Source: Pseudofrankia sp. DC12 (lineage in GTDB: Bacteria > Actinomycetota > Actinomycetes > Frankiales > Frankiaceae). Taken from it: DNA of 64,000 nucleotides. The notes beneath the pieces are model-generated. The model did no database searches and was not told the origin of the DNA. It saw only the letters and a list, made by a program, of their open reading frames with translations. Made by a program: the position numbers and the translations under genes. Positions 11,720 to 48,957 of this stretch are shown here, one piece after another (position 1 is the stretch's first letter; each line of letters opens with the position of its first letter). The stretch covers positions 430,978 to 494,977 of the forward strand of contig NZ_KQ031391.1 in assembly GCF_000966285.1 (NCBI RefSeq), written 5' to 3'.

Positions 11720-11755
11720 CGGAAGAATTCCCATCGGGGATTGGGCAGGGTTGGG

Positions 11756-12495: not shown

Positions 12496-12497
12496 GG

Positions 12498-34451: not shown

Positions 34452-34569
34452 GGGCGCAGTGTCGCACGCGGGGGCGCGCCGATCCCCCAGCCTTCGTGAT
34501 CCGGACGATCAGACCACAGCACCGGCCCGGGAGCCGCCGCGAGCCTTGCCGGGCGCGCACAGTGGAGGC

Positions 34570-35505
34570 ATGGGACGGGCGAGCACACGGCGGCGAATCG
34601 TGCGGGTGACCGTAGGGGCCACGCCGGGCCCTCGGGTCGACACGGTCGCCGGCGAGGAGCCGCTGGAGCTCCGGCTGCGCGGGAGGCCACTCGCCGTCAC
34701 GATGCGCACCCCGGGGGACGACCTGGACCTCGCGGTCGGATTCCTCGTCGGCGAGGGGCTGATCGGCTCGGGCGCCGACGTGCGGTCGATGCGGTACTGC
34801 GCCGGCGCCGACGAGGACGGCGGGCAGACGTACAACGTGCTCGACCTGGTGCTCGACCCGGCGGTGCCCGAGCCGGACCTGTCCGCCGCGGCCCGCTCCT
34901 TCTACATGACCAGCTCGTGCGGGCTGTGCGGGAAGGCGAGCATCGACGCGATCCGGCTGCGCTCCCGGTACGGCGTCGCCGACGATCCGCTGCGGGTCGA
35001 GGCGGCGGCACTTGCCGGGCTGCCCGCGGCGCTGCGCCGGGCGCAGCGGCTGTTCGCGGCCACGGGCGGGCTGCACGCCGCCGCGCTCGCCGACGGACGA
35101 GGGCGCCTCGAGCTGGTCCGCGAGGACGTCGGGCGGCACAACGCCGTCGACAAGGTCGTCGGCGCGGCGGCCCGGGCCGGGCTCCTGCCGCTGCACGGGC
35201 GGGTGCTGCTGGTCAGCGGGCGGGCATCGTTCGAACTGACCCAGAAGGCGCTGCTGGCCGGGATCCCGGTACTCGCCGCGGTGTCGGCGCCGTCGTCGCT
35301 CGCGGTGGACCTGGCGGCCGAGAGCGGGATGACGCTCGTCGGCTTCCTGCGGGGCGACTCGATGAACGTCTACGCCGGGGCCGAACGGGTCGTCACGGGG
35401 AGCGGCCAGGCCGAGCCGCGCAGAGCGGCCGCCGAGCTGGCCGCGGCGGCCGCCGCCACGGCGCGCGACGACTCAGGCGAAAACGGCGCACATCGGGCCA
35501 GGTGA
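34570..35505 (+). CDS. fdhD: FdhD, formate dehydrogenase sulfurtransferase
   Basis: 311 residues. FdhD moves sulfur from cysteine desulfurase to the molybdenum cofactor of formate dehydrogenase. It carries TPGDDLDLAVGFLVGEGLI near residue 48, the redox/sulfur-carrying CxxC in SSCGLCGKAS near residue 118, GGLHAAALAD, EDVGRHNAVDKVVG and the ending GMTLVGFLRGDSMNVYAG. The ATG at 34570 follows GGAGG. No formate dehydrogenase gene is in this window, so the client enzyme is encoded elsewhere. Only 19 bases separate it from the next gene, suggesting co-transcription. Confidence 0.93.
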   Translation: MGRASTRRRIVRVTVGATPGPRVDTVAGEEPLELRLRGRPLAVTMRTPGDDLDLAVGFLVGEGLIGSGADVRSMRYCAGADEDGGQTYNVLDLVLDPAVPEPDLSAAARSFYMTSSCGLCGKASIDAIRLRSRYGVADDPLRVEAAALAGLPAALRRAQRLFAATGGLHAAALADGRGRLELVREDVGRHNAVDKVVGAAARAGLLPLHGRVLLVSGRASFELTQKALLAGIPVLAAVSAPSSLAVDLAAESGMTLVGFLRGDSMNVYAGAERVVTGSGQAEPRRAAAELAAAAAATARDDSGENGAHRAR

Positions 35506-35524
35506 GCCGATAGAGTCCGGCTTC

Positions 35525-36073
35525 GTGACCTGCATCGTCGGGGTGGAGTACAACGGGCGGGTCGTGATCGGCGGTGACAGTGCCGGCGTCGCCGGGTGGT
35601 CGGTGACCGTCCGGGGCGACACCAAGGTCTTCCGCAACGGCGCCTACATCATGGGCTTCACCGACTCGTTCCGGATGGGCCAGCTGCTGCGGTACAGCCT
35701 GGTCCCGCCCATGCCGCACACCTGGGACCTGGACCGGTTCATGGCGACCGAGTTCGTCGCCGCCGTGCGCGACTGCCTGCGCGACGGCGGCTACGCCCGC
35801 AACGACTCGGGCAACGAGACCGGCGGCCAGTTCCTCGTCGGCATCCAGGGCCGGCTCTACCGGATCGACTCGGACTTCCAGATCGGCCGCAGCGTCGACG
35901 ACTACCAGGCGGTCGGCGCCGGCGAGGACTTCGCCTGCGGCTCGCTGCACACCTCGGCCGCCCAGCCGCCGGAGGACCGGGTCCGCCTGGCGCTGGCAGC
36001 CGCGGCGCACCACTCGACCGATGTCCGGGCGCCGTTCCACCTTGTCTGGGACCCGGACCAGCCTGCCGACTGA
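35525..36073 (+). CDS. Small Ntn-hydrolase-like protein with N-terminal Thr
   Basis: 182 residues from GTG 35525. The start (M)TCIVGVEYNGRVVIGGDSAG is close to the pattern of proteasome beta/HslV-type Ntn hydrolases, where the mature N-terminal Thr is the nucleophile and GGDS forms the following strand. Removal of Met would expose Thr here without a propeptide. Later parts (VFRNGAYIMGFTDSFRMGQLL; GQFLVGIQGRLYRIDSDFQ; YQAVGAGEDFACGSLH) fit the sandwich fold. A catalytic Lys is likely in DTKVF. It follows fdhD by 19 bases. Activity, if any, is unknown. Confidence 0.65.
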   Translation: MTCIVGVEYNGRVVIGGDSAGVAGWSVTVRGDTKVFRNGAYIMGFTDSFRMGQLLRYSLVPPMPHTWDLDRFMATEFVAAVRDCLRDGGYARNDSGNETGGQFLVGIQGRLYRIDSDFQIGRSVDDYQAVGAGEDFACGSLHTSAAQPPEDRVRLALAAAAHHSTDVRAPFHLVWDPDQPAD

Positions 36074-36087
36074 GGCCACGCGCAGGG

Positions 36088-37134
36088 TCAGCGAGAGAGC
36101 TGGCGGATCCGCTGGGTCGCGATGGCCGCCCAGGCGGCGGGACCGGTGATCGGGGTGAACCGGGCGGCGGCGTCGGTCAGGGCGGCGTACTGGTCGTCGC
36201 TCAGCCTGATCTCGGCAGCCGCCGCGTTGGACTCCAGCTGCGCCACGCTGGACGCGCCGGGAATGGCGATCACACACGGGTTGTGGATCACCCAGGCGAG
36301 GGCGATCTGCGCGCAGCTCGCGTCGTGCGCCGCCGCCACCTCCCGCAGCACGTCGAGCAGCGGGGTCACCCTGGCCAGGTTCTCGGTCAGGAACAGCGGG
36401 TTGCCGATCCTCACCTTGCCCGCCGGCTGGTTCGTCACGTCGTACCGGCCGGCGAGCAGGCCCTGGGCCAGCGGGCTCCATGCGATGATCAACCGGCCGG
36501 CCCGCTCCGCATACGGGATCAGGATCTCGTCCGGGGCCCGGTGCACGAGGCTGTACTCGACCTGGTTGGACAGGACCGGCCCGCCGAGCGCCGTCTCGGC
36601 CGCCTGCCAGCGGGTCAGCGAGTAGTTCGAGACGCCGACGTGGTCGATCAGCCCGACCTCGCGCAGCCCGCGCATGCCGCGCATCGCCGGGCCGTCCTTG
36701 ACGATCGGGTTCGGCTGGTGCATCTGGTAGAGGTCGAGCCTGCGGACGCCGAGGCGCCGGGCGCTGGCGAGGCCGCGCTGCTCGACGACCGAGGCCACGG
36801 GCACCACCGGGAGGATCTTCGTCGCGATGAAGGCCGTCTCGGCGAGCTCCTCACCGGCCTCGCGCAGCGCGGCGCCGACGATCCGTTCGCTCGCGCCCAT
36901 CCCGTAGATCTCGGCGGTGTCGATCATGGTGATCCCGAGCTCGAGCGCGCGGCGCAGGATCAGATGCGCCTCGCGGCGGGCGTACTCCGGGCCGTAGCCC
37001 CAGTTGCCCGACCCGAACTGCCAGGCGCCGAGCCCGATCTTCGAGATCTTCTTCGAGCCCTTGACCGCGTCGCCGACGACCGCGCTCCCCAGGGTCTTGT
37101 CCCCGAGGTCTCCGAGCGTGTTCACATACCGCAT
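36088..37134 (-). CDS. Aldo/keto reductase
   Basis: 348 residues, NADPH-dependent (beta/alpha)8 barrel oxidoreductase. The catalytic tetrad is visible: Asp and Tyr in TMIDTAEIYGMGASE, Lys in FIATKILP and His in LYQMHQPNP. The cofactor-binding end is VIAIPGASSVAQLESNAAAAEIRLSDDQ. It resembles the YdhF/Tas/AKR11-12-type bacterial enzymes. The ATG at 37134 fits the family start; an ATG at 37203 would add 23 residues. It is divergent from the enoyl-CoA hydratase, sharing a 177-base spacer with a KstR-like box. Confidence 0.88.
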   Translation of the reverse strand: MRYVNTLGDLGDKTLGSAVVGDAVKGSKKISKIGLGAWQFGSGNWGYGPEYARREAHLILRRALELGITMIDTAEIYGMGASERIVGAALREAGEELAETAFIATKILPVVPVASVVEQRGLASARRLGVRRLDLYQMHQPNPIVKDGPAMRGMRGLREVGLIDHVGVSNYSLTRWQAAETALGGPVLSNQVEYSLVHRAPDEILIPYAERAGRLIIAWSPLAQGLLAGRYDVTNQPAGKVRIGNPLFLTENLARVTPLLDVLREVAAAHDASCAQIALAWVIHNPCVIAIPGASSVAQLESNAAAAEIRLSDDQYAALTDAAARFTPITGPAAWAAIATQRIRQLSR

Positions 37135-37279
37135 GGACACAGTCAACACACCTACGTGGCCCGACGCTGTCCGACGCGCGACCATGTTGTCGCGAACGAG
37201 CACATCCGAGGTTTCGCACCGAGCATGGGTGATCCGGTTGTGAGCAGGGGCGCGGTCGCCTATCGTCCGACCTCGCTGG

Positions 37280-37293
37280 TGAAACGTGTTCTA
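37280..37293. promoter_or_regulatory. KstR-like operator upstream of enoyl-CoA hydratase
   Basis: TGAAACGTGTTCTA fits the mycobacterial KstR consensus TnnAACnnGTTnnA exactly, and lies 19 bases before the TTG start (31 before the ATG) of the hydratase. KstR is a TetR-type repressor of lipid/steroid catabolism genes. No kstR gene is in the window. Confidence 0.45.
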
Positions 37294-37311
37294 GTTCGTC
37301 GGGAGGGCGCC

Positions 37312-38262
37312 TTGTCCGAGTCCATGGCGGAGCAGCCCGTGCGCGTCGGAGACCCAGAGCCGCCCGCGCTCACCGGAGACCCAGAGCCGCCCGCGCTCAC
37401 CGGAGACCCAGAGCCGCCCGCGCTCACCGGAGACCCAGAGCCGCCCGTGCTCACCGGAGACACAGAGCCGCCCGTGCTCGTCGAGGCCGACGGGGCCGTG
37501 CTTACGGTGACGTTGAACCGGCCGGCGAAGCGGAACGCCACCAACGCGGAGGTGCTCTGCCGCCTCTACGACGCCTGGCGCCGGCTCGACGAGGACGACT
37601 CGCTGCGGGTCGCGATCCTCACCGGGAGGGGCGGCACGTTCTGCGCCGGCATGGACCTGGGCGAGATCATCCGGCTGCGCCAGGGGGTCCGGGACAACGA
37701 GTGGATCATCCGGCTGCAGGACGACCCGGGCATCTCGCTGAAGGCCTACCTGAAGCGGTACCGGCCGGCGAAGCCGGTGATCCTGGCCGCCGAGGGCTTC
37801 GCCCGGGCGGGCGGCACCGAGATCCTGCAGGGCACCGACATCCGGGTCGCCGGCGAGAACGCCGTGTTCGGGGTCACGGAGGTGCAGCGCGGCCTGTTCC
37901 CGATGGCCGGCTCGGCCGTTCGGCTGCGCCGCCAGATGGGCTACGCCGTCGCCGCGGAGATGCTGTTGACCGGCGCGGACCTGACCGCGCAGCGCGCCCA
38001 CGAGCTCGGCCTGATCAACCACGTCGTGCCCGACGGGCAGGCGCTGGCCAAGGCCCGCGAGATCGCCGACCGGATCGCGCGCAACGGCCCGCTCGCGGTC
38101 CGGGCCATCCTCGCGACCCTGCGCGAGACGGAGACACTGCCCGAGGCGGAGGCCTTCGGCATCGAGGAGCGCCAGGGCGGCGCGGTCATGCGCTCGAAGG
38201 ACGCCATGGAGGGCCCGGTCGCCTTCCTGGAGAAGCGCGAGCCCGTCTTCACGGGTAGCTAG
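37312..38262 (+). CDS. Enoyl-CoA hydratase/isomerase family protein
   Basis: Crotonase-fold enzyme of about 316 residues. The CoA-binding/oxyanion segments are AILTGRGGTFCAGMDLGEI near residues 103-121 and AAEGFARAGGTEILQGTDIRVAGENAVFGVTEVQRGLFP. A Glu in the latter is the usual catalytic position. TTG at 37312 is preferred because GGGAGG lies 5 bases upstream; ATG at 37324 has no such site. The N-terminus carries five nonapeptide repeats (GDPEPPALT) before the catalytic domain, which is abnormal for the family. Probably acts in beta-oxidation. Confidence 0.85.
   Translation: MSESMAEQPVRVGDPEPPALTGDPEPPALTGDPEPPALTGDPEPPVLTGDTEPPVLVEADGAVLTVTLNRPAKRNATNAEVLCRLYDAWRRLDEDDSLRVAILTGRGGTFCAGMDLGEIIRLRQGVRDNEWIIRLQDDPGISLKAYLKRYRPAKPVILAAEGFARAGGTEILQGTDIRVAGENAVFGVTEVQRGLFPMAGSAVRLRRQMGYAVAAEMLLTGADLTAQRAHELGLINHVVPDGQALAKAREIADRIARNGPLAVRAILATLRETETLPEAEAFGIEERQGGAVMRSKDAMEGPVAFLEKREPVFTGS
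37348..37482. repeat. 27-bp tandem repeat, 5 units, in enoyl-CoA hydratase N-terminus
   Basis: Units GGAGACCCAGAGCCGCCCGCGCTCACC, the first three identical and the last two diverged. Each adds nine residues (GDPEPPALT) to a disordered N-terminal tail. Confidence 0.92.
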
Positions 38263-38286
38263 CCCTGGAGGGAAAGGGGAGTCCGG

Positions 38287-38799
38287 ATGCTGAGCGTCTT
38301 CTGTTTCGACCGGCTGGCCGTGACCGTCAGGGACCTGTACTTCGTCGATCCGGACCCCGCTCCCGGTCAGGAGGGGCCCGAGCGCGGGGTGCGCGTGGAG
38401 CTGCGGCTCGTCGAGCCCCAGCCGTGGCGCGGGTCGATCTACGCCTCGCAGCGGATCGTCGTCGACACGTCGCTGCTGCGGGTCGACCTGCTGGAGTCGG
38501 TGGCGCGCGGCCCAGGCAGCCGCGACCGGGTGCATCACCATCCGGTGGTGACCGACAACGAGCCGGGTAGCCGGGTCTTCGACCGCGCGCTGACCGACGA
38601 CCCGCTGGCCTGGCTGCGCGGCCGGCTGGCCGACCCGATGGCGCTGCTCGCTGCGGCGGGGGTCGACGACCTGGCCGGCTACCAGGAGTCCGCCGGCGAA
38701 CTGACGCTGTCATTGCCCCAGGTCGTCGAAGCGGTCGCCAGCAGCCTCGAACGGGTCCGTGCCGGCGAGCTGGCCCTCACCCGGACCCGGGGCACCTGA
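38287..38799 (+). CDS. Hypothetical protein
   Basis: 170 residues, not recognised. It starts MLSVFCFDRLAVTVRDLYFVDPDP, then VRVELRLVEPQPWRGSIYASQRIVVDTSLLRVDLLES, suggesting a beta-rich N-terminal domain, and ends in helices (LSLPQVVEAVASSLERVRAGEL). A His-rich spot (RVHHHPVV) lies in the centre. No membrane segment. The ATG has GGAGGGAAAGGGGAG upstream, and the gene begins 24 bases after the hydratase stop, so the two are probably co-transcribed. The context suggests a lipid-metabolism partner, without direct support. Confidence 0.65.
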   Translation: MLSVFCFDRLAVTVRDLYFVDPDPAPGQEGPERGVRVELRLVEPQPWRGSIYASQRIVVDTSLLRVDLLESVARGPGSRDRVHHHPVVTDNEPGSRVFDRALTDDPLAWLRGRLADPMALLAAAGVDDLAGYQESAGELTLSLPQVVEAVASSLERVRAGELALTRTRGT

Positions 38800-38815
38800 A
38801 CACGAGCGCTCGAAA

Positions 38816-38838
38816 TAGAACGCATTCTACGATCGTAG
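38816..38838. promoter_or_regulatory. Overlapping palindromes between convergent genes
   Basis: TAGAACGCATTCTA (arms TAGAA/TTCTA; one base off the KstR-like consensus) overlaps CTACGATCGTAG, a perfect 12-bp palindrome. Both lie between the ends of two convergent genes, where no promoter is expected. It could be a leftover operator or belong to an unrecognised transcript. Confidence 0.3.
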
Positions 38839-38916
38839 GGTGGACGAGCCCCGGCCGGCGCGAGCCGGGCCGCCCGCTCGAGGCACCGCGGTCCTCCGTC
38901 GCTTCACTCGCCGCAC

Positions 38917-39342
38917 TCACAGGCGGCGGGTCAGCCGGAAGGACTTGATCGAGAAGCCGTTGCGGACGTACAGCCGGTGAGCGTCGTAACGGTGGGTGCC
39001 GGCGTCGAGGTGGACCTGGACGCAGTGGTGGAACCGCGCCTCGCGCTCCAGCCAGGCCAGCAGGCGGGAGGCATGGCCCTGGCCCCGGGCGGCGGGCACG
39101 GTCGAGAGGTCGTCAACGACCAGCACCCGGCCGTGGGCCAGCATGTGCTGCAGGCGGAAGCCGGCCGCGGCGACGACCCGGCCCGAGGCCGCGTCCCAGG
39201 ACCCGACCAGCCGGTAGCCCTGGGGCCGCTGCACCTCGTTGACGAGCCGGACGAACCCGGCCGAGGTCAGGTGCGGGCGCAGTTGGCGCATCGCGTCGTA
39301 CGCCTTCTCGGTCCCGTCCGCTCCCAGCTCCTCGATCTTCAC
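38917..39342 (-). CDS. GNAT family N-acetyltransferase
   Basis: 141 residues from GTG 39342. The acetyl-CoA-binding motif A is VLVVDDLSTVPAARGQGHASRLLAWLEREA near residues 72-101, with the Q/RxxGxG/A pyrophosphate loop as ARGQGHA. Motif B follows (VQVHLDAGTHRYDAHRLYVRNGFSIKSF). It acetylates an amine substrate with acetyl-CoA. It lies 135 bases downstream of an AsnB-type amidotransferase on the same strand and may acetylate the same metabolite. A longer reading from ATG 39393 is possible. Confidence 0.85.
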   Translation of the reverse strand: MKIEELGADGTEKAYDAMRQLRPHLTSAGFVRLVNEVQRPQGYRLVGSWDAASGRVVAAAGFRLQHMLAHGRVLVVDDLSTVPAARGQGHASRLLAWLEREARFHHCVQVHLDAGTHRYDAHRLYVRNGFSIKSFRLTRRL

Positions 39343-39477
39343 GTTTCGTATTCTGCCAGTTGCAAGGCGTGATGGAAGGGTTGGCCCACGCAAGGCCGCC
39401 TTGTCGCGACCCGTCCGCTCGGCCGCCGACCTGTGGTCCCGGTCCGCCCCCGCGGGCCTGCCGGGCCAGCCGGCCGG

Positions 39478-41259
39478 TCAGATTCCGTGGGCCTGCAGCC
39501 ACATCTCCAGCAGGCCGACCTGCCAGAGCGAGTTCGCACCGAGGTTGGTGCGCAGGTCGTTCGGCGCGTCGAGGGCCGCCGCCACCCACTCCGGCCGGTA
39601 GAGGCCCCGCTCGCGCGCGGCCGGGTCATGCAGCGCGGCCGCCACCCGCTCAAGGATCGGGCCCGACAGGTGGCGGATGGCCGGCACCGGGAAGTAGCCC
39701 TTGGGACGGTCGATCACCTCGTCCGGCAGCAGGGTGCGGCTGATGTCCTTGAGCACTCCCTTCCCGCCGGAGGCGAGCTTGTACTCCGGCGGGCAGGCGG
39801 CCGCGAGCTCGACCAGCTCATGGTCGAGGAACGGCGTGCGGGCTTCCAGCCCCGCGGCCATCGTCATGTTGTCGACCCGCTTCACCGGGTCGTCGACCAG
39901 CATGATCGTCGAGTCGATCCGCAGCGCCGCGTCGACGGTGGTCTCGGCGCCGGGGTGGTCGAAGTGCTCGGCGACGAAGTGCCGGCTCGCGTCGCCCTCG
40001 ATCAGGTGGTCGGCCGCGATGATGGCGGCCAGGTCGCCGTGGGCCCGGTCGGCGAAGACCCGCAGATAGGCGTCGACGGCCTGGTCGCGGGGCACCGCGT
40101 CGAGCGGGCTGTACCAGGAGTAGCCGGCGAACACCTCGTCGGCGCCCTGCCCGGACTGCACCACGGTCACGTCCCGGGCGACCTCCTGGGACAGCAGGTA
40201 GAACGCGACGCAGTCGTGGCTGACCATCGGCTCGCTCATCGCGTCGATGGCCGCGTCGACCGCGGGCGTCAACGCCTCGGTCGGGACCAGGATCTGGTGG
40301 TGGTCGGTGCCGAAGTGCTTGGCGACCAGGTCGGAGTAGTGGAACTCGTCGCCCGTCTCGCCGCCGGCGGCCTCGAAGCCGACGCTGAACGTGGCCAGGC
40401 CCGCCTGCCCGGCCCGCGCGAGCAGAGCGACGATCATGCTGGAGTCCAGCCCGCCGGACAGCAGCACGCCGACCGGCACGTCGGCGACCATCCGGCGGCG
40501 GACCGCGACGCGCAGCCTCTCCGCGACGGCGTCGCGCCAGTCGAGCGCCGTCCAGCCGGCCTGCTCGGGGCGGCGGGTGAAGTCGGGCCGCCAGTAGACC
40601 TTGTCCGTGCTGGTCCCGTCCGGCTCGATCACGCGGACCGTCGCCTGGGGCAGCTTGCGCACTCCGCGCAGGATCGTGCGGGGCGGCGGGACGATCGCGT
40701 GGAACGACAGGTAGTGGTGCAACGCGACCAGGTCGAGCTCGGTGTCCACCCCGCCGCCGGCGAGCAGCGCGGGCAGGGTCGAGGCGAACCGGATCCGGTG
40801 GGCGTCGGCGCTGACGTAGAGCGGCTTGATGCCGAGACGGTCCCGGGCGAGCACGAGGCGGCCGCTGTCGCGCTCGTGCACGGCGATCGCGAACATCCCG
40901 GCGAAGTGGTCGACGAAGCCGGTCCCCCACCGGTGGTAGGCCTTGAGCACGACCTCGGTGTCCGAGCCGGAGAAGAACCGGTAGCCGGCGGCGGTCAGCT
41001 CGTCGCGCAGCTCCTGGTAGTTGTAGACGCAGCCGTTGAACACGACCGTGAGGCCGAGCTCGGGGTCGGTCATCGGCTGCGCGCCCCGCTCGGACAGGTC
41101 GATGATCTTCAGACGACGGTGGCCGAGCGCCACCGGGCCGGCCGAGAAGAGGCCGACGCCGTCCGGGCCGCGCCGCTCCAGCGCCGCCGTCATCCTGGCG
41201 ACCGCCACGACGTCAGCCGGCTGGCCGTCCAGCCGCAGCTCCCCGCTCAGCCCACACAT
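39478..41259 (-). CDS. AsnB-type glutamine amidotransferase, NAGGN-amidotransferase-like
   Basis: 593 residues. Class II glutamine amidotransferase domain with nucleophile Cys2 (MCGLSGELRLDGQ), RRGPDGVG, VFNGCVYNYQELR and SGSDTEVVLKAY. The synthetase domain follows with the pyrophosphate loop VGVLLSGGLDSSMI and QSGQGADEVFAGYSWYSPL. The motif set, especially MCGxxGExRxDG at the start and GYSWYSPL, is closer to the amidotransferase of N-acetylglutaminylglutamine amide synthesis than to ordinary asparagine synthetase. It uses ATP and glutamine nitrogen to amidate a carboxylate. It lies between the ligase fusion and the GNAT. Confidence 0.87.
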   Translation of the reverse strand: MCGLSGELRLDGQPADVVAVARMTAALERRGPDGVGLFSAGPVALGHRRLKIIDLSERGAQPMTDPELGLTVVFNGCVYNYQELRDELTAAGYRFFSGSDTEVVLKAYHRWGTGFVDHFAGMFAIAVHERDSGRLVLARDRLGIKPLYVSADAHRIRFASTLPALLAGGGVDTELDLVALHHYLSFHAIVPPPRTILRGVRKLPQATVRVIEPDGTSTDKVYWRPDFTRRPEQAGWTALDWRDAVAERLRVAVRRRMVADVPVGVLLSGGLDSSMIVALLARAGQAGLATFSVGFEAAGGETGDEFHYSDLVAKHFGTDHHQILVPTEALTPAVDAAIDAMSEPMVSHDCVAFYLLSQEVARDVTVVQSGQGADEVFAGYSWYSPLDAVPRDQAVDAYLRVFADRAHGDLAAIIAADHLIEGDASRHFVAEHFDHPGAETTVDAALRIDSTIMLVDDPVKRVDNMTMAAGLEARTPFLDHELVELAAACPPEYKLASGGKGVLKDISRTLLPDEVIDRPKGYFPVPAIRHLSGPILERVAAALHDPAARERGLYRPEWVAAALDAPNDLRTNLGANSLWQVGLLEMWLQAHGI

Positions 41260-41348
41260 GTCCGCTCCTGTCAGCTGATTTGCGTCGGATCGGGAACACG
41301 CCTTTTCCTCCGTTGTGCCCCGGATCGGGCCGGACATTCCGGGCGAGG

Positions 41349-44039
41349 TCAGCTCCGCAGCAGCCAGGTGTCCTTGCACCCGCCGCCGCGGGACGAGTTC
41401 ACGACGAGGCTGCCGGCCGGTGCGACGCGGCTGAACGCGGCCGGCGCCACCAGCATCTGCTCGCCCTGGTAGACGAAGGCGCGCAGGTCGACGGCGCGCG
41501 GTTCCAGCCGGCTGGCGCCCGCGCCGGCCGCCGAGGGGTCGGCCGACTCGGCCGACTCGGCGGCCCAGGTCGGATGAGTGGACAGCGCGACCACCTCCTG
41601 CCCGATCCAGCGCCGCGGCTCGGCGAGAAGCTGTTCGCGCGCCGCCGTCAGCTCGTGCGGCGCGGCGCGGGGGCCGATCAGCACGCCAGCGCCACCGTAG
41701 CCGTCGACCGGTTTGACGACCAGCTCGTCGAGGTGAGCCAGCACGTGGTCGAGCTGCTCCGGGTCGCCGCAGACATAGGTCGGGACGTCGTCGAGCACGG
41801 GCTGCTCGCCCAGGTAGTACGGGATCAGCCGGTTGACATGGGCGTAGACCACCTTGTCGTCGGCGACGCCGTTGCCCGGGGCGTTGGCCAGGCTCACGGT
41901 CTCGGCGGCGAGCGCGGCGGCGAGCGGGGGGCCGAGCGGCCCGCCGTCGGCGCCGAGGGCGGCGAACAGGTCGTCGTCGTCGATCCGCCGGTAGAGCACG
42001 TCGACCGGACGCGGCGCGCCGCCGGCCGGGTCGAGGTAGCGGACGGCGCCGTCACCGACGACGAGCTCGTGCGGCTCGACCAGCGGCACGACCATCTGCT
42101 CGGCCAGGAACTGGTGCTCGAAGTAGGCGGAGTCCTCCGGCCCGCTGGTCAGCACGGCGACCGCCGGCACACCGTGGCTGTCGCGGCCGCGGGCATGGGC
42201 GGGCGCCGCGGCCACGAGCGCGGCGTGCAGCAGCGCCGGCACCGCGTCGAGGCCGAGAATCCCCGGCCGGACGGACAGCTCGGGCAACGCGGCACGGGTG
42301 AGCCAGCGGGCGGCGACCGCGTAGGCGGCGCCGGAGGGAATCCGCAGGTTGTCCTCGAGCACGAGCCACCGGCCGTCGCCGCCGCGGACCAGGTCGATGC
42401 CGCTGACCGTGGCCCGGATGGCGCCCGCGGGGACGGCATGCCCCCAGTGGCGCAGCCCCGGCGACGCCGGGACCGCCCAGGCGGGCACGATTCCGTCGGC
42501 GACGGCGTGCCCGTCGGCGTACACGTCCCGCAGGAAGGCCTCCAGCGCCCGGACCCGCTGGACCAGGCCGGTGCCGATCATGGCCCAGTCGGCGGCGTCG
42601 ACGATCCGCGGCACCAGGTCGATCGGGAGCGGCCGGCTCTCCTGCTCGCCAGCGACGCGGAAGACCATGCCCTGGGCGGTCTGGGTGGCCCGGCGGGTGG
42701 CGGCCCGCTCGTCGAGCGCCGCCGGGCCGATCCGCTCCAGGGCGCGCAGCACCCCTCGGTAGGACGGGCGGACCAGGCCGCGGGCGTCCAGGGACTCGTC
42801 GTAGCCGTCGGGCTGGAAGTCCTGCCGGCCCTGGTAGCCCGACAGCAGCGTCGGCGCCACCCGTTCGGCCCGGGCCAGCGCGGTCGAGTCACTGGTCGCC
42901 GGGCCTGTCGCGGGCGTCGAGGCGGGCGGGCCGGGCTCGGCCGCCCGGGTGCGGGCGAGCAGCAGGTCGGCGGCGTCCGTCAGCAGGCCGCGGCGCAGGA
43001 AAGCCCGGCGGGCCGCGGCCGCGGCGCTGCCGCGCTGGACCGCCTGGTCGGCCAGCTCGGTGAGCAGCTCCCAGTCTCCCGCGGCCTCCAGCTGGGGGCG
43101 GATCTCGGCGAGCAGCCGGCCCAGCAGGTCCTCGGCCGGCACTGGCCCCGCGCCGCCGCCGGACGGCTCGACGAGGTCGCCCTCCAGCCCGGAGCGGGCG
43201 GCCCGCCAGGTCGCGGCCCGCAGCAGTTCGGCGCGCGGCAGCGCGGTGGCCGCACCCGCCTCGATCGCGGCGACCGAGTGGCTCACCAGGCCCCGGAACA
43301 GGCCGGCGATCAGCACGACCGTGTCGACGTCCGGGCAGGCGTCACAGACACGCAGCTCGACGGTCGGCAGGTGGGCCGACGGACGGATGTCGAAGTACAC
43401 CATCCCGAGGTCGCTGATCACCCCGGACTTGACCAGGTCGGCGACCAGCTGGTCGTACTCGGCCGCGGTCTCGAACCGGCCGGTCACCCCGGCGGTCGGC
43501 CAGCGCTGCCAGACCATCGTGCGCATGCTGGCGTAGCCGCTGTCGGCCCCCAGCCAGAACGGCGAGCTCGCCGAGAGGGCCAGGAACAGCGGCAGCCAGG
43601 GGCCTACGCGCGCGATGACGGCCATCGCAATGTCCCGGTCGCCGACGTCGACGTGCACGTGGGCCCCGCAGATCACCTGCTCGCGGGCAAGGATCTGGTA
43701 CTCCTCTGTCATCTGCAGGTAACGCGGGTCGCGGCTGACCTCCAGCCGGTCCGGGTCGACGATCGGGACGGTGCCGGCGGCGACCGGGCCGAGCCCGAGC
43801 GGCTCCGCGGCGGCGGCCAGCTCGCGGCGCAGGTCGACGAGGTCGGCGCGCAGCGCGGCCAGGTCGCGGGTCGGCGCGCTGTTCGTCTCGACGACGGACT
43901 TGAGCAACTCGGAGGTGAAACGACCGGTCGGCAGGACCTCCAGAATCTCCCCGGCCCTGGGTACCAGCGCCCGGGTGACCAGATCGAGGATGTGGAACTC
44001 CTCCTCGACGCCGACGGCAGGAATCGGCGTGTCGCTCAT
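41349..44039 (-). CDS. GCS2-type carboxylate-amine ligase fused to circularly permuted ATP-grasp
   Basis: 896 residues from ATG 44039. Residues 1 to about 370 are a YbdK-like glutamate-cysteine ligase 2 domain (VGVEEEFHILD, VVETNSAPTRDL, ICGAHVHVDVGD, LPTVELRVCDACPDVDTV). Residues about 430-896 are a circularly permuted type 2 ATP-grasp domain (YDESLDARGLVRPSYRG, LEDNLRIPSG, VDVLYRRIDDDDLF, NAPGNGVADDKVVYAHVN, DELVVKPVDGYGGAGVLIG, ending NSSRGGGCKDTWLL). Both domains form amide bonds with ATP, so the protein could ligate two amines in series. It heads the three-gene minus-strand group, 89 bases before the amidotransferase. Confidence 0.87.
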   Translation of the reverse strand: MSDTPIPAVGVEEEFHILDLVTRALVPRAGEILEVLPTGRFTSELLKSVVETNSAPTRDLAALRADLVDLRRELAAAAEPLGLGPVAAGTVPIVDPDRLEVSRDPRYLQMTEEYQILAREQVICGAHVHVDVGDRDIAMAVIARVGPWLPLFLALSASSPFWLGADSGYASMRTMVWQRWPTAGVTGRFETAAEYDQLVADLVKSGVISDLGMVYFDIRPSAHLPTVELRVCDACPDVDTVVLIAGLFRGLVSHSVAAIEAGAATALPRAELLRAATWRAARSGLEGDLVEPSGGGAGPVPAEDLLGRLLAEIRPQLEAAGDWELLTELADQAVQRGSAAAAARRAFLRRGLLTDAADLLLARTRAAEPGPPASTPATGPATSDSTALARAERVAPTLLSGYQGRQDFQPDGYDESLDARGLVRPSYRGVLRALERIGPAALDERAATRRATQTAQGMVFRVAGEQESRPLPIDLVPRIVDAADWAMIGTGLVQRVRALEAFLRDVYADGHAVADGIVPAWAVPASPGLRHWGHAVPAGAIRATVSGIDLVRGGDGRWLVLEDNLRIPSGAAYAVAARWLTRAALPELSVRPGILGLDAVPALLHAALVAAAPAHARGRDSHGVPAVAVLTSGPEDSAYFEHQFLAEQMVVPLVEPHELVVGDGAVRYLDPAGGAPRPVDVLYRRIDDDDLFAALGADGGPLGPPLAAALAAETVSLANAPGNGVADDKVVYAHVNRLIPYYLGEQPVLDDVPTYVCGDPEQLDHVLAHLDELVVKPVDGYGGAGVLIGPRAAPHELTAAREQLLAEPRRWIGQEVVALSTHPTWAAESAESADPSAAGAGASRLEPRAVDLRAFVYQGEQMLVAPAAFSRVAPAGSLVVNSSRGGGCKDTWLLRS

Positions 44040-44399
44040 GGTCGCCACGCTACGTCTCCTCCGTTGCGGCGGCATGTGGCGGGTGTGAACCGCCCGCCTG
44101 TCAGGCGCTTCGTGCCCGCCAAACCCTTCTGTCACCTGTCGTCGCGTCACCCGGCGATGTGTCACCCGGCGCAACGGCATCCGCTGTCGGGACGTGCCCG
44201 GCCCAGCACAGCAGGACCCTCGGAACGAGCCTGCCGGCCGCCCGGCTCCCGGTCGCGGCGCGACGCCGTGACCTGCGCCACCGACCGGTCACCGGCGGCG
44301 GCCAGGCCGCCCGGGACACCGCGCCGGGCCGACAACGGAGGGAGCCGAACAACCGCGAGCAGGCCGGCTGGAAGGCCGCCGCGGCGTACCGTGGCGAGC

Positions 44400-44543
44400 A
44401 TGCCCGCGAAAACGCCAACGAATGCACCGGAAATGATTTCGGAAACCATTCCCCCGCGTATTCCGTCGGGTGTACCGGAAATAACGCGGGACGCGCTGGA
44501 CAGCCCGAAACCCGGGCCATTGCGCCACCGAGGGCCTCGGTGA
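44400..44543 (+). CDS. Possible small ORF coupled to the CDF transporter
   Basis: ATG at 44400 gives 47 codons (MPAKTPTNAPEMISETIPPR..., ending RHRGPR) whose TGA overlaps the GTG proposed for the CDF gene (GTGA, 44540-44543). Base composition here is lower in GC than in neighbouring genes. No domain. The alternative is that the CDF gene itself starts further upstream and this is a shadow. Confidence 0.25.
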   Translation: MPAKTPTNAPEMISETIPPRIPSGVPEITRDALDSPKPGPLRHRGPR

Positions 44544-45832
44544 GCGGTCCGGCGGACCGCTCGGCCGACGTGCAGCTCAGTCCGCGCCCGCACGCCGGGC
44601 ACGGCCCGGACGACGCGCCGCCGGCCTCGTCACCGGCCGCCGCGGGGCAGAGCGAGCGGCCCGAGGCCAGCCATCGGGAGCCGGCGGCCACCCGGCCGGC
44701 CCACGTCCACCAACCAGCCGGCACCGGCCAGCAGAGTGCCGAACACGAGGCCGCCCACGAGAGCGCGGCCGAGGCGGGTGCGGCCCAAGCGGGTTCCGGC
44801 CACGAGCACGACGGGCGCCACGAGCACGGCGGGCGCCATGAGCACGGCGACAGCCACCGGGGCCACCGCCACGGCGCCGGCGGGCACAGCCACCGGCCGT
44901 CGGCGTCCGCCGATGCCCGGCTGCTGACGGCCGCACTCACGCTGATCGGTGGCTTCCTGGTCGCCGAGGTGATCGTCGGCTTCGCCGTCGGCTCGGTCGC
45001 GCTGCTGTCGGACGCCGCGCACATGCTCACCGACGCGGGCTCGCTGGCACTGGCGCTGGTCGCGATGCGGCTCGCCGCGCGCCCGGCGGGCGGCCCGCTG
45101 ACCTACGGCTGGCGGCGCATCGAGATCCTCTCCGCGCAGGCGAACGGCTTCGCGCTGCTCGCGCTCGCCCTGGTGCTGGCCGTGCCGGCGGCCGGGCGGC
45201 TGGTGCACCCGACCGGGGTCGCCGGCGCACCGGTGCTGGTCACGGCGCTCGTCGGCGTCGCGGTGAACGTCGGGGCGACGACGCTGCTGGCCCGCGCCGA
45301 CCGGCGCAGCCTGAACGTCGAGGGCGCCTTCCAACATGTGCTCACCGACCTGTTCGCCTTCCTCGCGACAGCGGCGGCCGGCCTTGTGATCCTCCTGACC
45401 GGCTTCACCCGGGCCGACCCGCTCGCCGCGCTGGTAGTGGCCGCGATGATGGTCCGCGCCGGGTGGGGCCTGATCCGCGACACCAGCCGGGTCTTCATGG
45501 AGGCGGCCCCGGTCGGCGTCGACCCGGCGGAGATCGGCCAGGCGCTGGCCGGTCTCGACCAGGTGGCCGACGTGCACGACCTGCACGTCTGGGAGGTCAC
45601 CTCGGGGATGGCGGCGCTGTCGGCGCATCTGCTGGTCGACCCGGCCGGGGACTGCCACCGGATCTCGGACGCCGCCCGCCGGCTGGTGCGCGAGCGCTGG
45701 CGCATCGACCACGTCACCCTGCAGGTCGACCACGCCGAGCCCACCGTGCTGACGGTCACTCTGGGCCCTCGCTGGCAGTGCTCCGTCACCCCTGCGTCGT
45801 CGGAACCGGCACGCGACGCGGGCGAGCGGTAA
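44540..45832 (+). CDS. CDF-family zinc/cation efflux transporter, His-rich N-terminus
   Basis: About 430 residues from GTG 44540. The His-rich cytoplasmic tail (residues about 60-125) contains HEHDGRHEHGGRHEHGD repeats and binds metal. Six membrane helices follow, with the metal-site motifs LSDAAHMLTDAGSLAL (HxxxD) and HVLTDLFAFLATA (HxxxD). The C-terminal cytoplasmic domain has VADVHDLHVWEVTSG and LLVDPAGDCHR. These are ZnT/CzcD hallmarks: proton-coupled export of Zn2+ or similar ions. An upstream ATG (44159) in frame would add about 127 residues of poor quality. The tail is encoded by an 18-bp repeat. Confidence 0.85.
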   Translation: MSGPADRSADVQLSPRPHAGHGPDDAPPASSPAAAGQSERPEASHREPAATRPAHVHQPAGTGQQSAEHEAAHESAAEAGAAQAGSGHEHDGRHEHGGRHEHGDSHRGHRHGAGGHSHRPSASADARLLTAALTLIGGFLVAEVIVGFAVGSVALLSDAAHMLTDAGSLALALVAMRLAARPAGGPLTYGWRRIEILSAQANGFALLALALVLAVPAAGRLVHPTGVAGAPVLVTALVGVAVNVGATTLLARADRRSLNVEGAFQHVLTDLFAFLATAAAGLVILLTGFTRADPLAALVVAAMMVRAGWGLIRDTSRVFMEAAPVGVDPAEIGQALAGLDQVADVHDLHVWEVTSGMAALSAHLLVDPAGDCHRISDAARRLVRERWRIDHVTLQVDHAEPTVLTVTLGPRWQCSVTPASSEPARDAGER

Positions 45833-45929
45833 CCGGCTTGAACGCCGGATTCCCACCGGGTGGGCGAACACGCCGCCGCACGGCCGAAAGGACGGACGGC
45901 TGGGCACGGGTAGACGGCCGGGTGACGGA

Positions 45930-45963
45930 GAACGGGGCCGGTGTCCCGGCACCGGCCCCGTTC
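45930..45963 (+). terminator. Strong hairpin terminator after the CDF gene
   Basis: GAACGGGGCCGGTG (45930-45943), loop TCCCGG, and its exact complement (45950-45963), followed by TTGG. This perfect 14-bp stem lies about 100 bases after the CDF stop. The rest of the 382-base spacer to 46214 holds no gene; its last 110 bases are less GC-rich and may be the promoter of the next gene. Confidence 0.7.
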
Positions 45964-46214
45964 TTGGATCCAGTGTCCGTCACCCGCGGACGGCGGCGCC
46001 GCCGGGTCTACCCGGCGCGGTTGACGCACGACGCCAGGTCGACACGCGAACAGCCGCCCACCACGGGCGGAACGGCCAATTGCGACATTTATGGCCGAAC
46101 GGTGAGGGTGGCGCGCTATCTCCGGAACGACATTCACCCACTCCGCAGTGATGCCCGTCACGTGACCGGGACCATTCATGTGGGAATCCGCTGAAGCCTG
46201 CTAGACACAAGCAC

Positions 46215-47561
46215 GTGATCGGGGACGAGGCGGACATCCCGGCCGCCGGCGACGCGACCGAGGTGCCGGCCGGCAGCGCACCGCCGGACCGCGGCACCGG
46301 CTCCGTCGCGGCCGCGCCCGACCCGGTGGAGTTCGCCGGCGGCGCGGCCCGGCTGGCGGGGCTGCGCCGGCTGACCGCCTGGCCGCGCCTCCCGCCGCCC
46401 CTCCCCGCCGAGCCGGCCGGCACGCTCGCACCGGTCGAGAGTCCCGGGGCCGACGGGTCCCGCGCGGCCACCCGGACCGTCACGCTCGCCGAGCCCCCAC
46501 CACCCGGCGACGCCGCGCCGTCTGAGGACCTCATGGCGACCGATGCCCCCACAGGGACTGGTCACCCCATGCGGACCGGGGCGCCGGTGGGCAGCCCGTT
46601 CGCCGACGCCGCCGGCGCCCGCCTGCTGACCACCGCGGAGGGGCACGCCACCGCCACGATGACCATCCCGTCCTGGCTGACCGGCCCGGCACCGGGTGGT
46701 GACCTCGGCACTGCCGCCGTCACCGCGCTCGCGGAGATCGCGATGGGTGCCGCGGGCAACGCCGGCCTGGCGGCCGACGAGCTGACCGTCACCGCCGCCT
46801 TCCAGCTACGCACCCGTGGCTCGGCCAAGGGCTGGCCCGGTTTCGGGGCCACCGCGCCCGCGGTGTCGGTGTTCGCCCCCGCGCCGGCCACCGACCGCGT
46901 GCGCCGGCGCCGGGCCGAGCTGCGCGCCGAGGCGCGGGTGCAGGACTCCGAGGCGGATGAGCCGCTGCGCCGGGTGACCGCGACCGTCAGCACCCCCGCG
47001 GGCCACCCGCTGGCCACGGCGTCCGCGATCCGCGCCGTCGTCCGCTCGACCCGCCTCGACCGGGCCCGCGCCGAGGACGCCGCCGGGCTGGCCCAGCTCA
47101 CCGGCCCGGCCGGGGAAGGCGAGGCGGGCACCCGGGCGCGGCAGACGCCGGACGGCCTGGTCTGCCACCGGCCGCCGTCGCATCCGCTGCTCGCCGAGCT
47201 GGCCGCCGACGTCGACCATGACGGCGACCGGGTGACCCTGCGGCTGACCCCGCCCGGGTGGCTCGCCAACCGGCTCGGCCAGGTGCACACGGCCGCCAGC
47301 TGCGCGCTCGTCGACGCGGCGATCGCCACGGCGCTCGCCCGGCGGCTGCCGGCCGGCTCCGCGGCGCACACCCTGTCGCTGGACCTGACGGTCGTGCACT
47401 CGCTCACGCTGGAGGCGGAGGTGACGGCGGTGGCCACGGTCCGCCACGTCGGGCGGCGACTGGCCGTGGTCGACGTCGAGGTAAGCCAGTCAGCGGGGCC
47501 ACCGAGCGTGCTCGCCAGGGCGACCGTCTCCCGCACCAGCCACCGACTGTCGAAGCAGTAG
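46215..47561 (+). CDS. Double-hotdog (PaaI-like) thioesterase family protein
   Basis: 448 residues from GTG 46215. After about 110 disordered residues there is a first hotdog-like domain (GHATATMTIPSWLTGPAPGGDLGTAAVTALAEIAMGAA, TVTAAFQLRT) and a second (RVTLRLTPPGWLANRLGQVHTAASCALVDAAIATALARR, SLDLTVVHSLTLEAEVTAVA), matching the PaaI/acyl-CoA thioesterase pattern with the GG-x-hydrophobic helix. It hydrolyses or binds acyl-CoA esters. A long Arg-rich linker separates the domains. Next to it is a GntR/FCD regulator, which might control it. Confidence 0.7.
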   Translation: MIGDEADIPAAGDATEVPAGSAPPDRGTGSVAAAPDPVEFAGGAARLAGLRRLTAWPRLPPPLPAEPAGTLAPVESPGADGSRAATRTVTLAEPPPPGDAAPSEDLMATDAPTGTGHPMRTGAPVGSPFADAAGARLLTTAEGHATATMTIPSWLTGPAPGGDLGTAAVTALAEIAMGAAGNAGLAADELTVTAAFQLRTRGSAKGWPGFGATAPAVSVFAPAPATDRVRRRRAELRAEARVQDSEADEPLRRVTATVSTPAGHPLATASAIRAVVRSTRLDRARAEDAAGLAQLTGPAGEGEAGTRARQTPDGLVCHRPPSHPLLAELAADVDHDGDRVTLRLTPPGWLANRLGQVHTAASCALVDAAIATALARRLPAGSAAHTLSLDLTVVHSLTLEAEVTAVATVRHVGRRLAVVDVEVSQSAGPPSVLARATVSRTSHRLSKQ

Positions 47562-47810
47562 AATCGCTGGCTGAGCCGTCGGCGGAGGTCGGCTGGCGAC
47601 CGAGTCTCCGGTAGTCCGTAGGCAACCTACATTTACGGATCGTAATCAGGCATCTTCACAGCGTGTTACATTCTTCGTATCACACCGTGGTATTACGCGA
47701 CCCGTGACCGAGTGACTACAACTCCCCCTGCAAGACTCCACCGCGACATCGCGACAGCGAGCTCGCGGCCTGGGCGGCAGGCCGCCCAGCCACCCACAGG
47801 GGGACGAGTC
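47562..47810. promoter_or_regulatory. AT-richer region, probable promoter of GntR/FCD gene
   Basis: 249 bases with a clear drop in GC at about 47615-47700 (TACATTTACGGATCGTAATC near 47627; TGTTACATTCTTCGTATCAC near 47662). No gene. Likely contains the promoter and autoregulatory site of the regulator, whose ATG at 47811 follows GGGGGACGAG. Confidence 0.5.
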
Positions 47811-48776
47811 ATGGCGTTACTGCAACCGGCCACCAATCTCGACACGGCCCGCCGGAGCGCCCACCCGGTGCGCATGACCAGAGTGGGCGGCCCGATGGGC
47901 ACAGCGGTGGGCGCGGCCGCCCTGGCCGGCGGTACCGGACGCGGCACCCCGACGTCCCTGCTCGACGACGGTCGGGTCGGGCGCCATGTGCGGGTCCCCA
48001 AGACCGCCGAGCTGGTCGCGGCGCACCTGCGCCGCCAGATCGTGCGCGGCGAGCTGGTCGAGGGGGACGCGCTGCCTCCCGAAGCCGTCCTCATGGAGCA
48101 GTTCGGCGTCTCCAGGCCGACGCTGCGCGAGGCGTTCCGCGTCCTGGAGTCGGAGGCGCTGATCTCGGTCCGCCGCGGCGCGCACGGCGGCGCCCGGGTG
48201 CACCGGCCGGACGGCCACGTCGCGGCCCGCTACGCCGGGCTGGTGCTGGAGCACCGCCGCACCACGGTCGCCGACGTCCAGCACGCGCGGGCGTCGCTGG
48301 AGACGCCCGCGGTTCGGATGCTGGCCGAGGCGCAGGCCGGACCGGCGCTGGGCCGGCTGCGGGCGGCGCTGAGCGAGTCCGCCACGGCGATCGACGGCGG
48401 CCAGACACCGGGCGGCGCGGCGGCCAGCCACGACGGCACCGGCCCGGACCCCTGGGCGGCGCTGAACGGCTTCCACCACCTGCTCGTCGAGCTGGCCGGG
48501 AACCAGACGCTCACCGTGATCGACAACATGCTCCGTCACATCCTGCACACCGCGGCGACCGGCCACCAGCCGGGCCTGGACGGGCGTCCCGAGCTCTCGG
48601 GTCCCGCCGACGCGGAGGGCCGGGACGAGCTGGCCGGGCACCTGGACGTGCACCGCCGCCTCGTCGAGCTGATCGAGCGGGGCGACCCGGACGCGGCCGA
48701 GGCGCTCTGGCGCCGGCACGTGGCCGAGGCCACCGACGAGAGGTCAGCCGCGCCGCTCGACCTTCTCGGCGGCTGA
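47811..48776 (+). CDS. GntR-family regulator with FCD domain
   Basis: 321 residues. The winged helix-turn-helix at about residues 68-130 reads AELVAAHLRRQIVRGELVEGDALPPEAVLMEQFGVSRPTLREAFRVLESEALISVRRGAHGGARV, the FadR-subfamily GntR signature. The FCD effector domain follows (ETPAVRMLAEAQ, FHHLLVELAGNQTLTVIDNML, HRRLVELIERGDPDAAEALWRRHV) with the His positions that bind metal. Such proteins repress fatty-acid or organic-acid catabolism genes until an acyl effector binds. A perfect palindromic terminator follows. Confidence 0.88.
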   Translation: MALLQPATNLDTARRSAHPVRMTRVGGPMGTAVGAAALAGGTGRGTPTSLLDDGRVGRHVRVPKTAELVAAHLRRQIVRGELVEGDALPPEAVLMEQFGVSRPTLREAFRVLESEALISVRRGAHGGARVHRPDGHVAARYAGLVLEHRRTTVADVQHARASLETPAVRMLAEAQAGPALGRLRAALSESATAIDGGQTPGGAAASHDGTGPDPWAALNGFHHLLVELAGNQTLTVIDNMLRHILHTAATGHQPGLDGRPELSGPADAEGRDELAGHLDVHRRLVELIERGDPDAAEALWRRHVAEATDERSAAPLDLLGG

Positions 48777-48796
48777 CGGCCGTTCTCGCCCGTCGG

Positions 48797-48830
48797 GCCG
48801 GGGATCGCGGCGCGCGCCGCGATCCCCGGC
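48797..48830 (+). terminator. Perfect 34-base palindromic terminator after GntR gene
   Basis: A 17-base arm GCCGGGGATCGCGGCGC followed immediately by its exact complement, starting 21 bases after the GntR stop. The central GCGC would form the loop. No T-run, as usual in high-GC actinomycetes. Confidence 0.7.
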
Positions 48831-48883
48831 CCGCACCGGTCCGGCCCGCACCGGTCCGGCCCGCACCGGTCCGGCCCGCACCG
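48830..48883. repeat. 15-bp tandem repeat, 3.6 units
   Basis: Three exact units CCCGCACCGGTCCGG and a partial fourth directly abut the palindrome. Each unit contains the ACCGGT hexamer. Confidence 0.9.
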
Positions 48884-48957
48884 CGCGCACGGGTCGTCGC
48901 GCGGATTGGCCCATCCCTGTGGTGGAGCCCCCGCCCCGGGGTCTAGCGTGTGGCGCC

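Follow-up and report, generated by a model that had tools for sequence, protein, structure and literature searches.

The locus described here raises the question of whether actinobacteria possess a second route to amidated dipeptides of the N-acetylglutaminylglutamine amide (NAGGN) type. It lies in the genome of Pseudofrankia sp. DC12 (6.88 Mb, a single contig), within a stretch of 64,000 nucleotides that was analyzed as a whole and is called the window below (contig NZ_KQ031391.1, positions 430,978 to 494,977). An initial annotation had noted three consecutive genes on one strand, for a ligase fusion, a NAGGN-related amidotransferase, and an acetyltransferase, and had proposed an undescribed route to an N-acetylated, NAGGN-like compound. 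The open reading frames (ORFs) confirmed all three genes on the minus strand. The first gene of the unit, LIG (41349..44039), encodes an 896-residue fusion of a GCS2 domain and a circularly permuted type 2 ATP-grasp ligase. It is followed by AMT (39478..41259), for a 593-residue AsnO-type amidotransferase with a Cys2 glutaminase and an AsnB-type synthetase domain, and by a gene for a generic GNAT acetyltransferase (38917..39393; 158 residues from a TTG codon; PF00583, 43.2 bits). The GNAT start is uncertain (TTG 39393 or GTG 39342). LIG and AMT are separated by 89 bases. The gap between AMT and GNAT is 84 bases with the TTG start and 135 bases, the annotated value, with the GTG start. At the level of sequence, comparison with relatives indicates that LIG (or GCS2 alone) and AMT form a unit conserved among actinobacteria, in which a gene for an S9 peptidase usually comes third, and that the GNAT gene is an accessory of the Frankiaceae. 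Such loci are referred to as the GCS2 kind, and those in which the amidotransferase is partnered by the NAGGN ligase Ngs, a GNAT-ATP-grasp fusion, as the Ngs kind.

AMT scored 967.3 bits against TIGR03104, the model for the NAGGN amidotransferase (cut-off, 570.1), and 406.5 bits against TIGR01536, the model for plain asparagine synthase, where it also exceeds the cut-off (267.1). Therefore, the best family for AMT is the NAGGN enzyme, in agreement with the initial annotation, and identity as a plain AsnB was ruled out by the far higher TIGR03104 score. A structure model of AMT (predicted local distance difference test score, 87.6) gave its best Z score, 36.1, with TsnB9 (7ylz) and a Z score of 33.3 with AsnB (1ct9). 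The window AMT is 66-68% identical to five Ngs-partnered AMTs, and GCS2-kind AMTs outside the Frankiaceae are no closer.

The ligase, as also annotated, belongs to a family different from the Ngs fusion. Its GCS2 domain, of the YbdK-type carboxylate-amine ligases, spans residues 9-285 (43185..44015, minus strand; PF04107, 198.9 bits), and its circularly permuted ATP-grasp domain (CP_ATPgrasp_2) spans residues 477-873 (41421..42611, minus strand; PF14403, 400.9 bits against a cut-off of 32). The protein exceeds the cut-offs of TIGR02050 (292.3 versus 176.4 bits) and NF010041 (354.7 versus 332 bits), and the EgtA model was not among its profile matches at an E value of 0.001. The GCS2 half matches YbdK (PDB 1r8g; 2.9e-25) and the ATP-grasp half matches PDB 3n6x (1.9e-91). 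GCS2 residues were compared in a 45-row alignment of the window protein, 32 fused ligases, and 12 stand-alone partners; two of the 34 fused ligases (L139 and L173) were dropped, their frames not being automatically readable. Residues kept in at least 43 of the 45 rows include E12-E14, E51, N53, H129, R173, R219, E228, and R230. In the ATP-grasp half, at least 32 of the 33 fused ligases share residues such as E562-D563-N564, R566, P568-S569-G570, D727-D728-K729, and K776. No ATP-grasp domain was detected where GCS2 stands alone (12 loci). The window genome has another, stand-alone ATP-grasp copy (G000:C1:550497-551924).

AMT was found over the cut-off in 40 of the 58 relative genomes searched. 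LIG adjoins it in 30 of the 32 other Frankiaceae loci; at one exception (L071) the contig starts 298 bases before an AMT that groups with the Ngs kind, and at the other (L076) only a C-terminal LIG fragment was seen. An S9 peptidase gene follows AMT in 24 of these 32 loci, and a GNAT gene lies within 4 kb of AMT in 21, downstream and on the same strand in 20. Downstream sequence of 4.5 kb or more is available for 23 loci; of these, 18 have S9, 19 have GNAT (one on the other strand), and 14 have both, and every one has at least one of the two. The unbroken order LIG-AMT-S9-GNAT occurs at L063 in genome G003, which together with G004 belongs to the window's genus. Here the AMT match ends at position 10137 of the locus, S9 occupies 10144-12429 and GNAT 12433-12885, and the protein after AMT carries a Peptidase_S9 domain (142.8 bits). 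S9 is missing in most of the genus, with GNAT placed directly after AMT in the window and in five further loci with full flanks (L051, L052, L059, L072, and L073). The corresponding junction in the window is 39394..39477 (minus strand). When the L063 S9 protein was used as query against the window genome (46 candidates scored, no positive control), no S9 homologue was found. The window locus appears to have lost its S9 peptidase.

The hydrolase domain of the L063 S9 protein has its closest counterparts among the aminoacyl and acylamino-acid-releasing peptidases, enzymes whose substrates are N-blocked peptides. This likeness fits turnover of an N-blocked dipeptide, whichever product is assumed. 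By regular expression, all three catalytic motifs were present in 42 of 53 S9 matches; the 11 misses were not singly examined.

The pairing of ligase and amidotransferase extends well beyond the Frankiaceae. A class sample of 296 genomes contained 86 AMT copies over the cut-off in 85 genomes, and Ngs in 45 genomes. Ngs adjoins 44 of these copies and GCS2 adjoins 38; four copies have neither, and none has both. The GCS2 count comprises 36 copies with GCS2 at most 500 bases upstream and two assigned by inspection: in G031 the distance is 525 bases, and in G228 the gene before AMT is an open fusion frame of 847 residues, whose ATP-grasp half adjoins AMT. The orientation is fixed, with Ngs directly downstream of AMT in 44 of 44 cases and GCS2 upstream in 36 of 36. 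Three of the copies with neither ligase (in G194, G164, and G013) have S9 beside them; the fourth is the second of two copies in G215 and is divergent. GCS2 adjoins AMT on the same strand in 38 of the 42 copies without Ngs, in several families; because of this recurrence and that in 30 of 32 Frankiaceae loci, the adjacency is not due to chance.

A second, named survey used the best 80 of 583 confirmed AMT loci, so that the named loci lean towards the window's relatives. Homologues were scored by tblastn on the same strand as AMT (up to 3 kb away for Ngs and S9, 4 kb for M42, and 6 kb for GCS2 and ATP-grasp), and genes were called by a simple codon-position GC rule. The families represented include Frankiaceae, Streptomycetaceae, Streptosporangiaceae, Pseudonocardiaceae, Micromonosporaceae, Mycobacteriaceae, Microbacteriaceae, Kineosporiaceae, and Nakamurellaceae. 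Of the 80, 22 carry Ngs, 58 carry GCS2, ATP-grasp, or S9 and no Ngs, and none carries both; as far as these surveys reach, the GCS2-kind unit is never found together with the Ngs ligase at AMT loci. S9 is present in 53 of the 58 GCS2-kind loci, GCS2 in 46, and ATP-grasp in 38, in the following combinations: GCS2, ATP-grasp, and S9 (30); GCS2 and S9 (12); S9 only (8); GCS2 and ATP-grasp (4); ATP-grasp and S9 (3, in Modestobacter and Klenkia); and ATP-grasp with a divergent GCS2 ORF recognized by eye (1, L170). Four of the eight S9-only loci (L111, L152, L174, and L177) end upstream at a contig edge. Two Planobispora genomes have a GCS2 elsewhere, 59-60% identical to that of the window; it lies in an 859-residue open frame and is therefore probably a fused ligase. 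The ancestral unit was likely a ligase (GCS2, usually fused to circularly permuted ATP-grasp), followed by AMT and then by S9.

No other protein cluster recurs at these loci as S9 does, among automatically called, unannotated clusters present in at least four loci. M42 peptidase (TIGR03106) was found near AMT at none of the 58 GCS2-kind loci and at 5 of the 22 Ngs loci; none of the three window genes encodes M42, the rest of the window genome not having been searched for it. In one Streptomyces record the three genes bear the NCBI names glutamate--cysteine ligase, N-acetylglutaminylglutamine amidotransferase, and alpha/beta fold hydrolase, and in another Streptomyces record a prolyl oligopeptidase accompanies AMT and no ligase is listed.

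The GNAT gene behaves differently from the ligase-amidotransferase pair. A search for it covered 46 of the 80 named genomes, including those of 27 of the 54 non-Frankiaceae GCS2-kind loci and 16 of the 22 Ngs-kind loci. It was present in 3 of 3 Frankiaceae genomes, gave weak matches (38-41%) in 2 of the 27 non-Frankiaceae GCS2-kind genomes, and was found in none of the 16 Ngs-kind genomes. GNAT was dropped as a core member because of its near-absence in the other genomes tested, for which reason "N-acetylated" is not implied by the conserved genes. The trio initially annotated as a unit therefore holds for its first two members, the usual third being S9, and the N-acetylated product is not upheld.

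The AMT proteins are themselves split, by sequence, into two groups largely following the ligase partner. The stretch that tracks the partner is residues 569-577 of the window AMT, LRTNLGANS (39529..39555, minus strand), as seen by column comparison across AMTs. All 27 Ngs-partnered rows have L at column 570, where 73 of 75 GCS2-kind rows have R; L170 and L076 are omitted from this count (R in 74 of 77 when they are included). The letters at columns 570 and 574 do not overlap between the kinds, being L versus R (two other letters) and R/N versus G (one D), respectively. Over residues 570-576 the Ngs kind has LTPL[R/N]GN, and a frequent reading of the GCS2 kind is RTTLG[A/S]N; from 569 onward, Ngs-partnered actinobacterial AMTs read xLTPL[R/N]GN. 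The Azospirillum and Shinella AMTs, from the classical set of AMT, Ngs, and M42, read ITPLRGS at 570-576. Two proteobacterial NAGGN-cluster AMTs (L185 and L187) share the TPLRG of this motif and group inside the Ngs kind in a quick tree that omitted L076 and L160. In the main AMT tree (106 rows, midpoint root, no bootstrap), partner kind needs two changes. One contig labelled Nevskia (Pseudomonadota; L145) has an AMT within a mycobacterial group of this tree and is probably mis-binned.

These observations mark the unit as a real and conserved variation on the AsnO/NAGGN pathway, one that seems to have gone without such a label. A GCS2-type ligase and an S9 peptidase occupy the places that Ngs and M42 have in the classical version. 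For the window, we hypothesize that the locus is a reduced copy of this second kind of AsnO pathway, making a capped dipeptide amide that serves as an osmolyte or stress solute; we regard the case as evenly balanced. LIG would join two amino acids using ATP, most likely via the gamma-carboxyl of glutamate, with or without help from the ATP-grasp domain. AMT would then amidate the C-terminal carboxylate with ammonia from glutamine, like AsnO, and the resulting small capped dipeptide amide would act as the solute. The S9 peptidase, where present, would recycle the dipeptide amide, as M42 may do for NAGGN. In the Frankiaceae the nearby GNAT may acetylate the product, and elsewhere any acetylation would occur outside the conserved unit. 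Stated in this form, the proposal, which we hold with middling confidence, covers both NAGGN itself and a relative such as gamma-glutamyl-glutamine amide. Of the initial annotation, the undescribed route to a NAGGN-like compound remains a good reading, given an amidotransferase of the NAGGN kind, a different ligase, and a recurring pair.

Several observations weigh against this proposal. The ATP-grasp half is missing in 12 of the 46 GCS2-bearing named loci (Streptomyces and Streptosporangiaceae). Among the matches listed in a GCS2 search of the 296 genomes, with three candidates scored per genome, GCS2 of the LIG clade also lies away from AMT, S9, and ATP-grasp at nine loci (identity of 51-56% to the window and up to 68-71% to other query copies); at two of the nine (G050 and G117) it is a second copy in a genome that also has a GCS2-AMT pair. 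Fused LIG occurs without adjacent AMT and S9 at L095 and L097, and LIG with S9 but without adjacent AMT at L093, L094, L096, and L098. None of the genomes of these LIG-S9 sets (G109, G095, G078, and G122) is in the 296-genome list with an AMT over the cut-off, and G095 has Ngs without AMT (L099). In two AMT-less Frankiaceae genomes, G018 and G021, LIG is reduced to GCS2 (L100:4851-6008 and L101:4352-5659), as if the ATP-grasp half, AMT, S9, and GNAT had been lost together. Because GCS2 and LIG occur without AMT, the ligase is not tied to amidation. Conversely, some genomes with AMT and S9 have no GCS2 closer than 43% (G164, G194, G013, Modestobacter, Klenkia, and the genome of L128). The AMTs of Modestobacter and Klenkia, which lie in the order AMT-S9-ATP-grasp with no adjoining GCS2, are placed with a support of 91 beside the Ngs group, within which the AMT of L170 (Rubrobacteraceae) falls; owing to these placements, the AMT tree and partner kind are not in full agreement. 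The motif at 569-577 could stem from common descent instead of substrate. Finally, riboswitch control of the unit was dropped as a candidate: no riboswitch or other known RNA reached gathering scores in window positions 34000-49000, and two sets of eight loci (16 of the 58 GCS2-kind loci) gave only a cobalamin riboswitch and tRNA, both several kilobases from AMT.

The product of the pathway can be narrowed further only tentatively. One possibility, on which we place limited weight, is that the product of the GCS2-kind unit is a compatible solute not described so far: an amidated gamma-glutamyl dipeptide, for example gamma-glutamyl-glutamine amide. Characterized GCS2 enzymes make gamma-glutamyl, not alpha-peptide, bonds, which is why an unacetylated gamma-glutamyl dipeptide amide can be considered. 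Such a compound would do without acetylation, its gamma-linkage taking the place of the acetyl cap and its amide abolishing the charge at the C terminus. If this is true, a gamma-glutamyl solute would replace NAGGN across Streptomyces, Frankia, Pseudonocardia, Actinoplanes, and Microbacteriaceae.

Alternatively, as a special case of the proposed pathway, the GCS2 kind may make NAGGN itself, a version that we find possible and somewhat doubtful. LIG would then, with the same reserve, stand in for the ATP-grasp part of Ngs without being homologous to it, and the acetyl group would come from the Frankiaceae GNAT or from an unlinked enzyme. The closeness of the AMTs of both kinds favors this version, as does the suitable position of GNAT in the Frankiaceae. 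The genomes with separate ligases also bear on it. In the window genome nothing exceeds the TIGR03103 (Ngs) cut-off; among 30 GCS2-kind genomes searched, 26 are without Ngs and four combine a single AMT in GCS2 context with an unlinked Ngs. The four hybrids are two Modestobacter genomes, Candidatus Mycobacterium methanotrophicum, and Mycobacterium sp. 1164966.3. Three of them have no GCS2 beside AMT, no AMT or M42 match was found near their unlinked Ngs genes, and their AMTs carry the GCS2-kind stretch (with D at 574 in M. methanotrophicum). They hint at a similar acceptor, such that either ligase can feed AMT. Mixed sets are also seen in mycobacteria, with LIG-AMT-S9 at L136 (a metagenome-assembled genome), LIG-AMT-S9 plus Ngs at L171, and AMT-S9 plus Ngs at L128, and Micromonospora species carry one kind or the other. 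However, GNAT was not found in 25 of the 27 GCS2-kind genomes tested outside the Frankiaceae, the bonds made by characterized GCS2 enzymes are of the gamma-glutamyl type, and AMT carries partner-linked residues. In addition, two of the four hybrids are Modestobacter, which say less about true GCS2-kind AMTs because their AMT branches beside the Ngs group.

We consider it unlikely that the product is some other amide with no part in osmoprotection (for instance a storage compound, a tag, or a secondary metabolite), AMT having changed its acceptor. The partner-linked AMT motif and the GCS2-ATP-grasp-S9 sets without AMT would agree with such a role, and circularly permuted ATP-grasp proteins were reportedly linked to peptide tagging by Iyer et al. 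in 2009. Against it, AMT is highly conserved between the kinds, which alternate within genera; a single AMT copy is present in 27 of 33 genomes examined (the 30 above and three more), and, among the automatically called, unannotated clusters, none recurs at the loci to the extent that S9 does. That the genes are merely neighbors, with a glutathione- or thiol-type GCS2 ligase standing by chance beside an asparagine synthase, is highly improbable, since the glutamate--cysteine ligase name in the Streptomyces record is outweighed by the conserved synteny in 38 of 42 AMT copies without Ngs and by an AMT not best matched by plain AsnB.

If the proposed GCS2-kind pathway is real, a single amidotransferase family has come to work with either of two unrelated ligases, and there is either a second route to NAGGN or a new osmolyte to be found. 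The locus would also give the GCS2-ATP-grasp fusion a pathway context. NCBI's family model assigns these amidotransferases to NAGGN synthesis; because 26 of the 30 GCS2-kind genomes are without Ngs, this annotation is incomplete or wrong for a large share of the actinobacteria, including Streptomyces and Frankia.

Some further features were recorded at and around these loci. No sigma-70 promoters were found, and one terminator-like site lies on the other strand, as chance would give. Window positions 38287-38799 encode a 170-residue protein, 84-94% conserved in the five loci of the genus named above, with no Pfam or NCBIfam match. At L170:5297-10594, from an uncultured member of the Rubrobacteraceae, AMT comes after ATP-grasp and what looks like a separate GCS2-like ORF, and the gene after AMT is by eye DUF1028-like, in place of S9. 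A Streptomyces plasmid (L186:5001-9091) has AMT and S9 without a listed adjoining ligase, its gene table being incomplete; the ligase gene may lie at an unlinked site or on a different replicon. In three Micromonospora genomes and in G215 there is a second AMT copy, divergent and scoring about 900 bits against TIGR03104 (L202:7335-10319, L203:8967-12489, L204:2122-5595, and L092:8816-13545). These copies lie near another GCS2 gene on the opposite strand (38-40% to the query copies); at L202-L204, AMT and GCS2 are convergent, and by eye a MarR gene precedes AMT.

No description of a GCS2-AMT link was found in the literature searched; earlier publication is possible, the likeliest source, the amidoligase study of Iyer et al., having been outside the search. 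The nearest published case is an asnO-ngg cluster of Casuarina Frankia, in which AsnO is >60% identical to others, the "Ngg" is <15% identical to real Ngg, and a dipeptidase lies between asnO and ngg, although a dipeptidase is also placed immediately downstream of ngg (PMC5563000). This cluster may be the AMT-S9-GNAT end of the present locus, its "Ngg" being GNAT or LIG. The position of S9 between AMT and GNAT parallels that of the dipeptidase between asnO and ngg; a dipeptidase downstream of ngg does not fit GNAT, and the available passages of that paper name no GCS2 or carboxylate-amine ligase. In the portions available of other papers, the roles of AsnO, Ngg, and the peptidase are described for Pseudomonas (PMC8070244) and NAGGN is reported from a Micromonospora (PMC8146288). 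Two other leads were set aside: ABAGG of Micromonospora profundi, as described in the excerpts available, is chemically unrelated (PMC10513789), and the osmotic induction of FRAAL1888 and FRAAL2171, likewise taken from excerpts (PMC5768760), was not used, the tags being far apart in number and not mappable to the locus.

Among known ligases, LIG resembles the YbdK/GCS2 enzymes in its GCS2 domain, which passes both family cut-offs and conserves the core residues, and differs from them in its fusion to a circularly permuted ATP-grasp domain and its linkage to an amidotransferase and, in relatives, to S9 as well. It scores just 40 bits on TIGR02048, the cyanobacterial GshA model, against a cut-off of 249. 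With the stand-alone circularly permuted type 2 ATP-grasp proteins (PDB 3n6x) it shares the domain family and key residues; their usual form lies elsewhere, whereas in LIG the domain is the C-terminal half. The closest system as a whole is that of NAGGN, in which AsnO (TIGR03104), Ngs/Ngg (TIGR03103), and M42 (TIGR03106) likewise place a ligase, an amidotransferase of the same family, and a peptidase in one short gene set. In contrast to that system, the GCS2 kind has as its ligase a GCS2 protein with or without circularly permuted ATP-grasp, located upstream of the amidotransferase and not downstream as Ngs is, has S9 instead of M42 and no fused GNAT, and carries a different AMT stretch at 569-577. 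Both systems occur within Micromonospora and within Mycobacterium.

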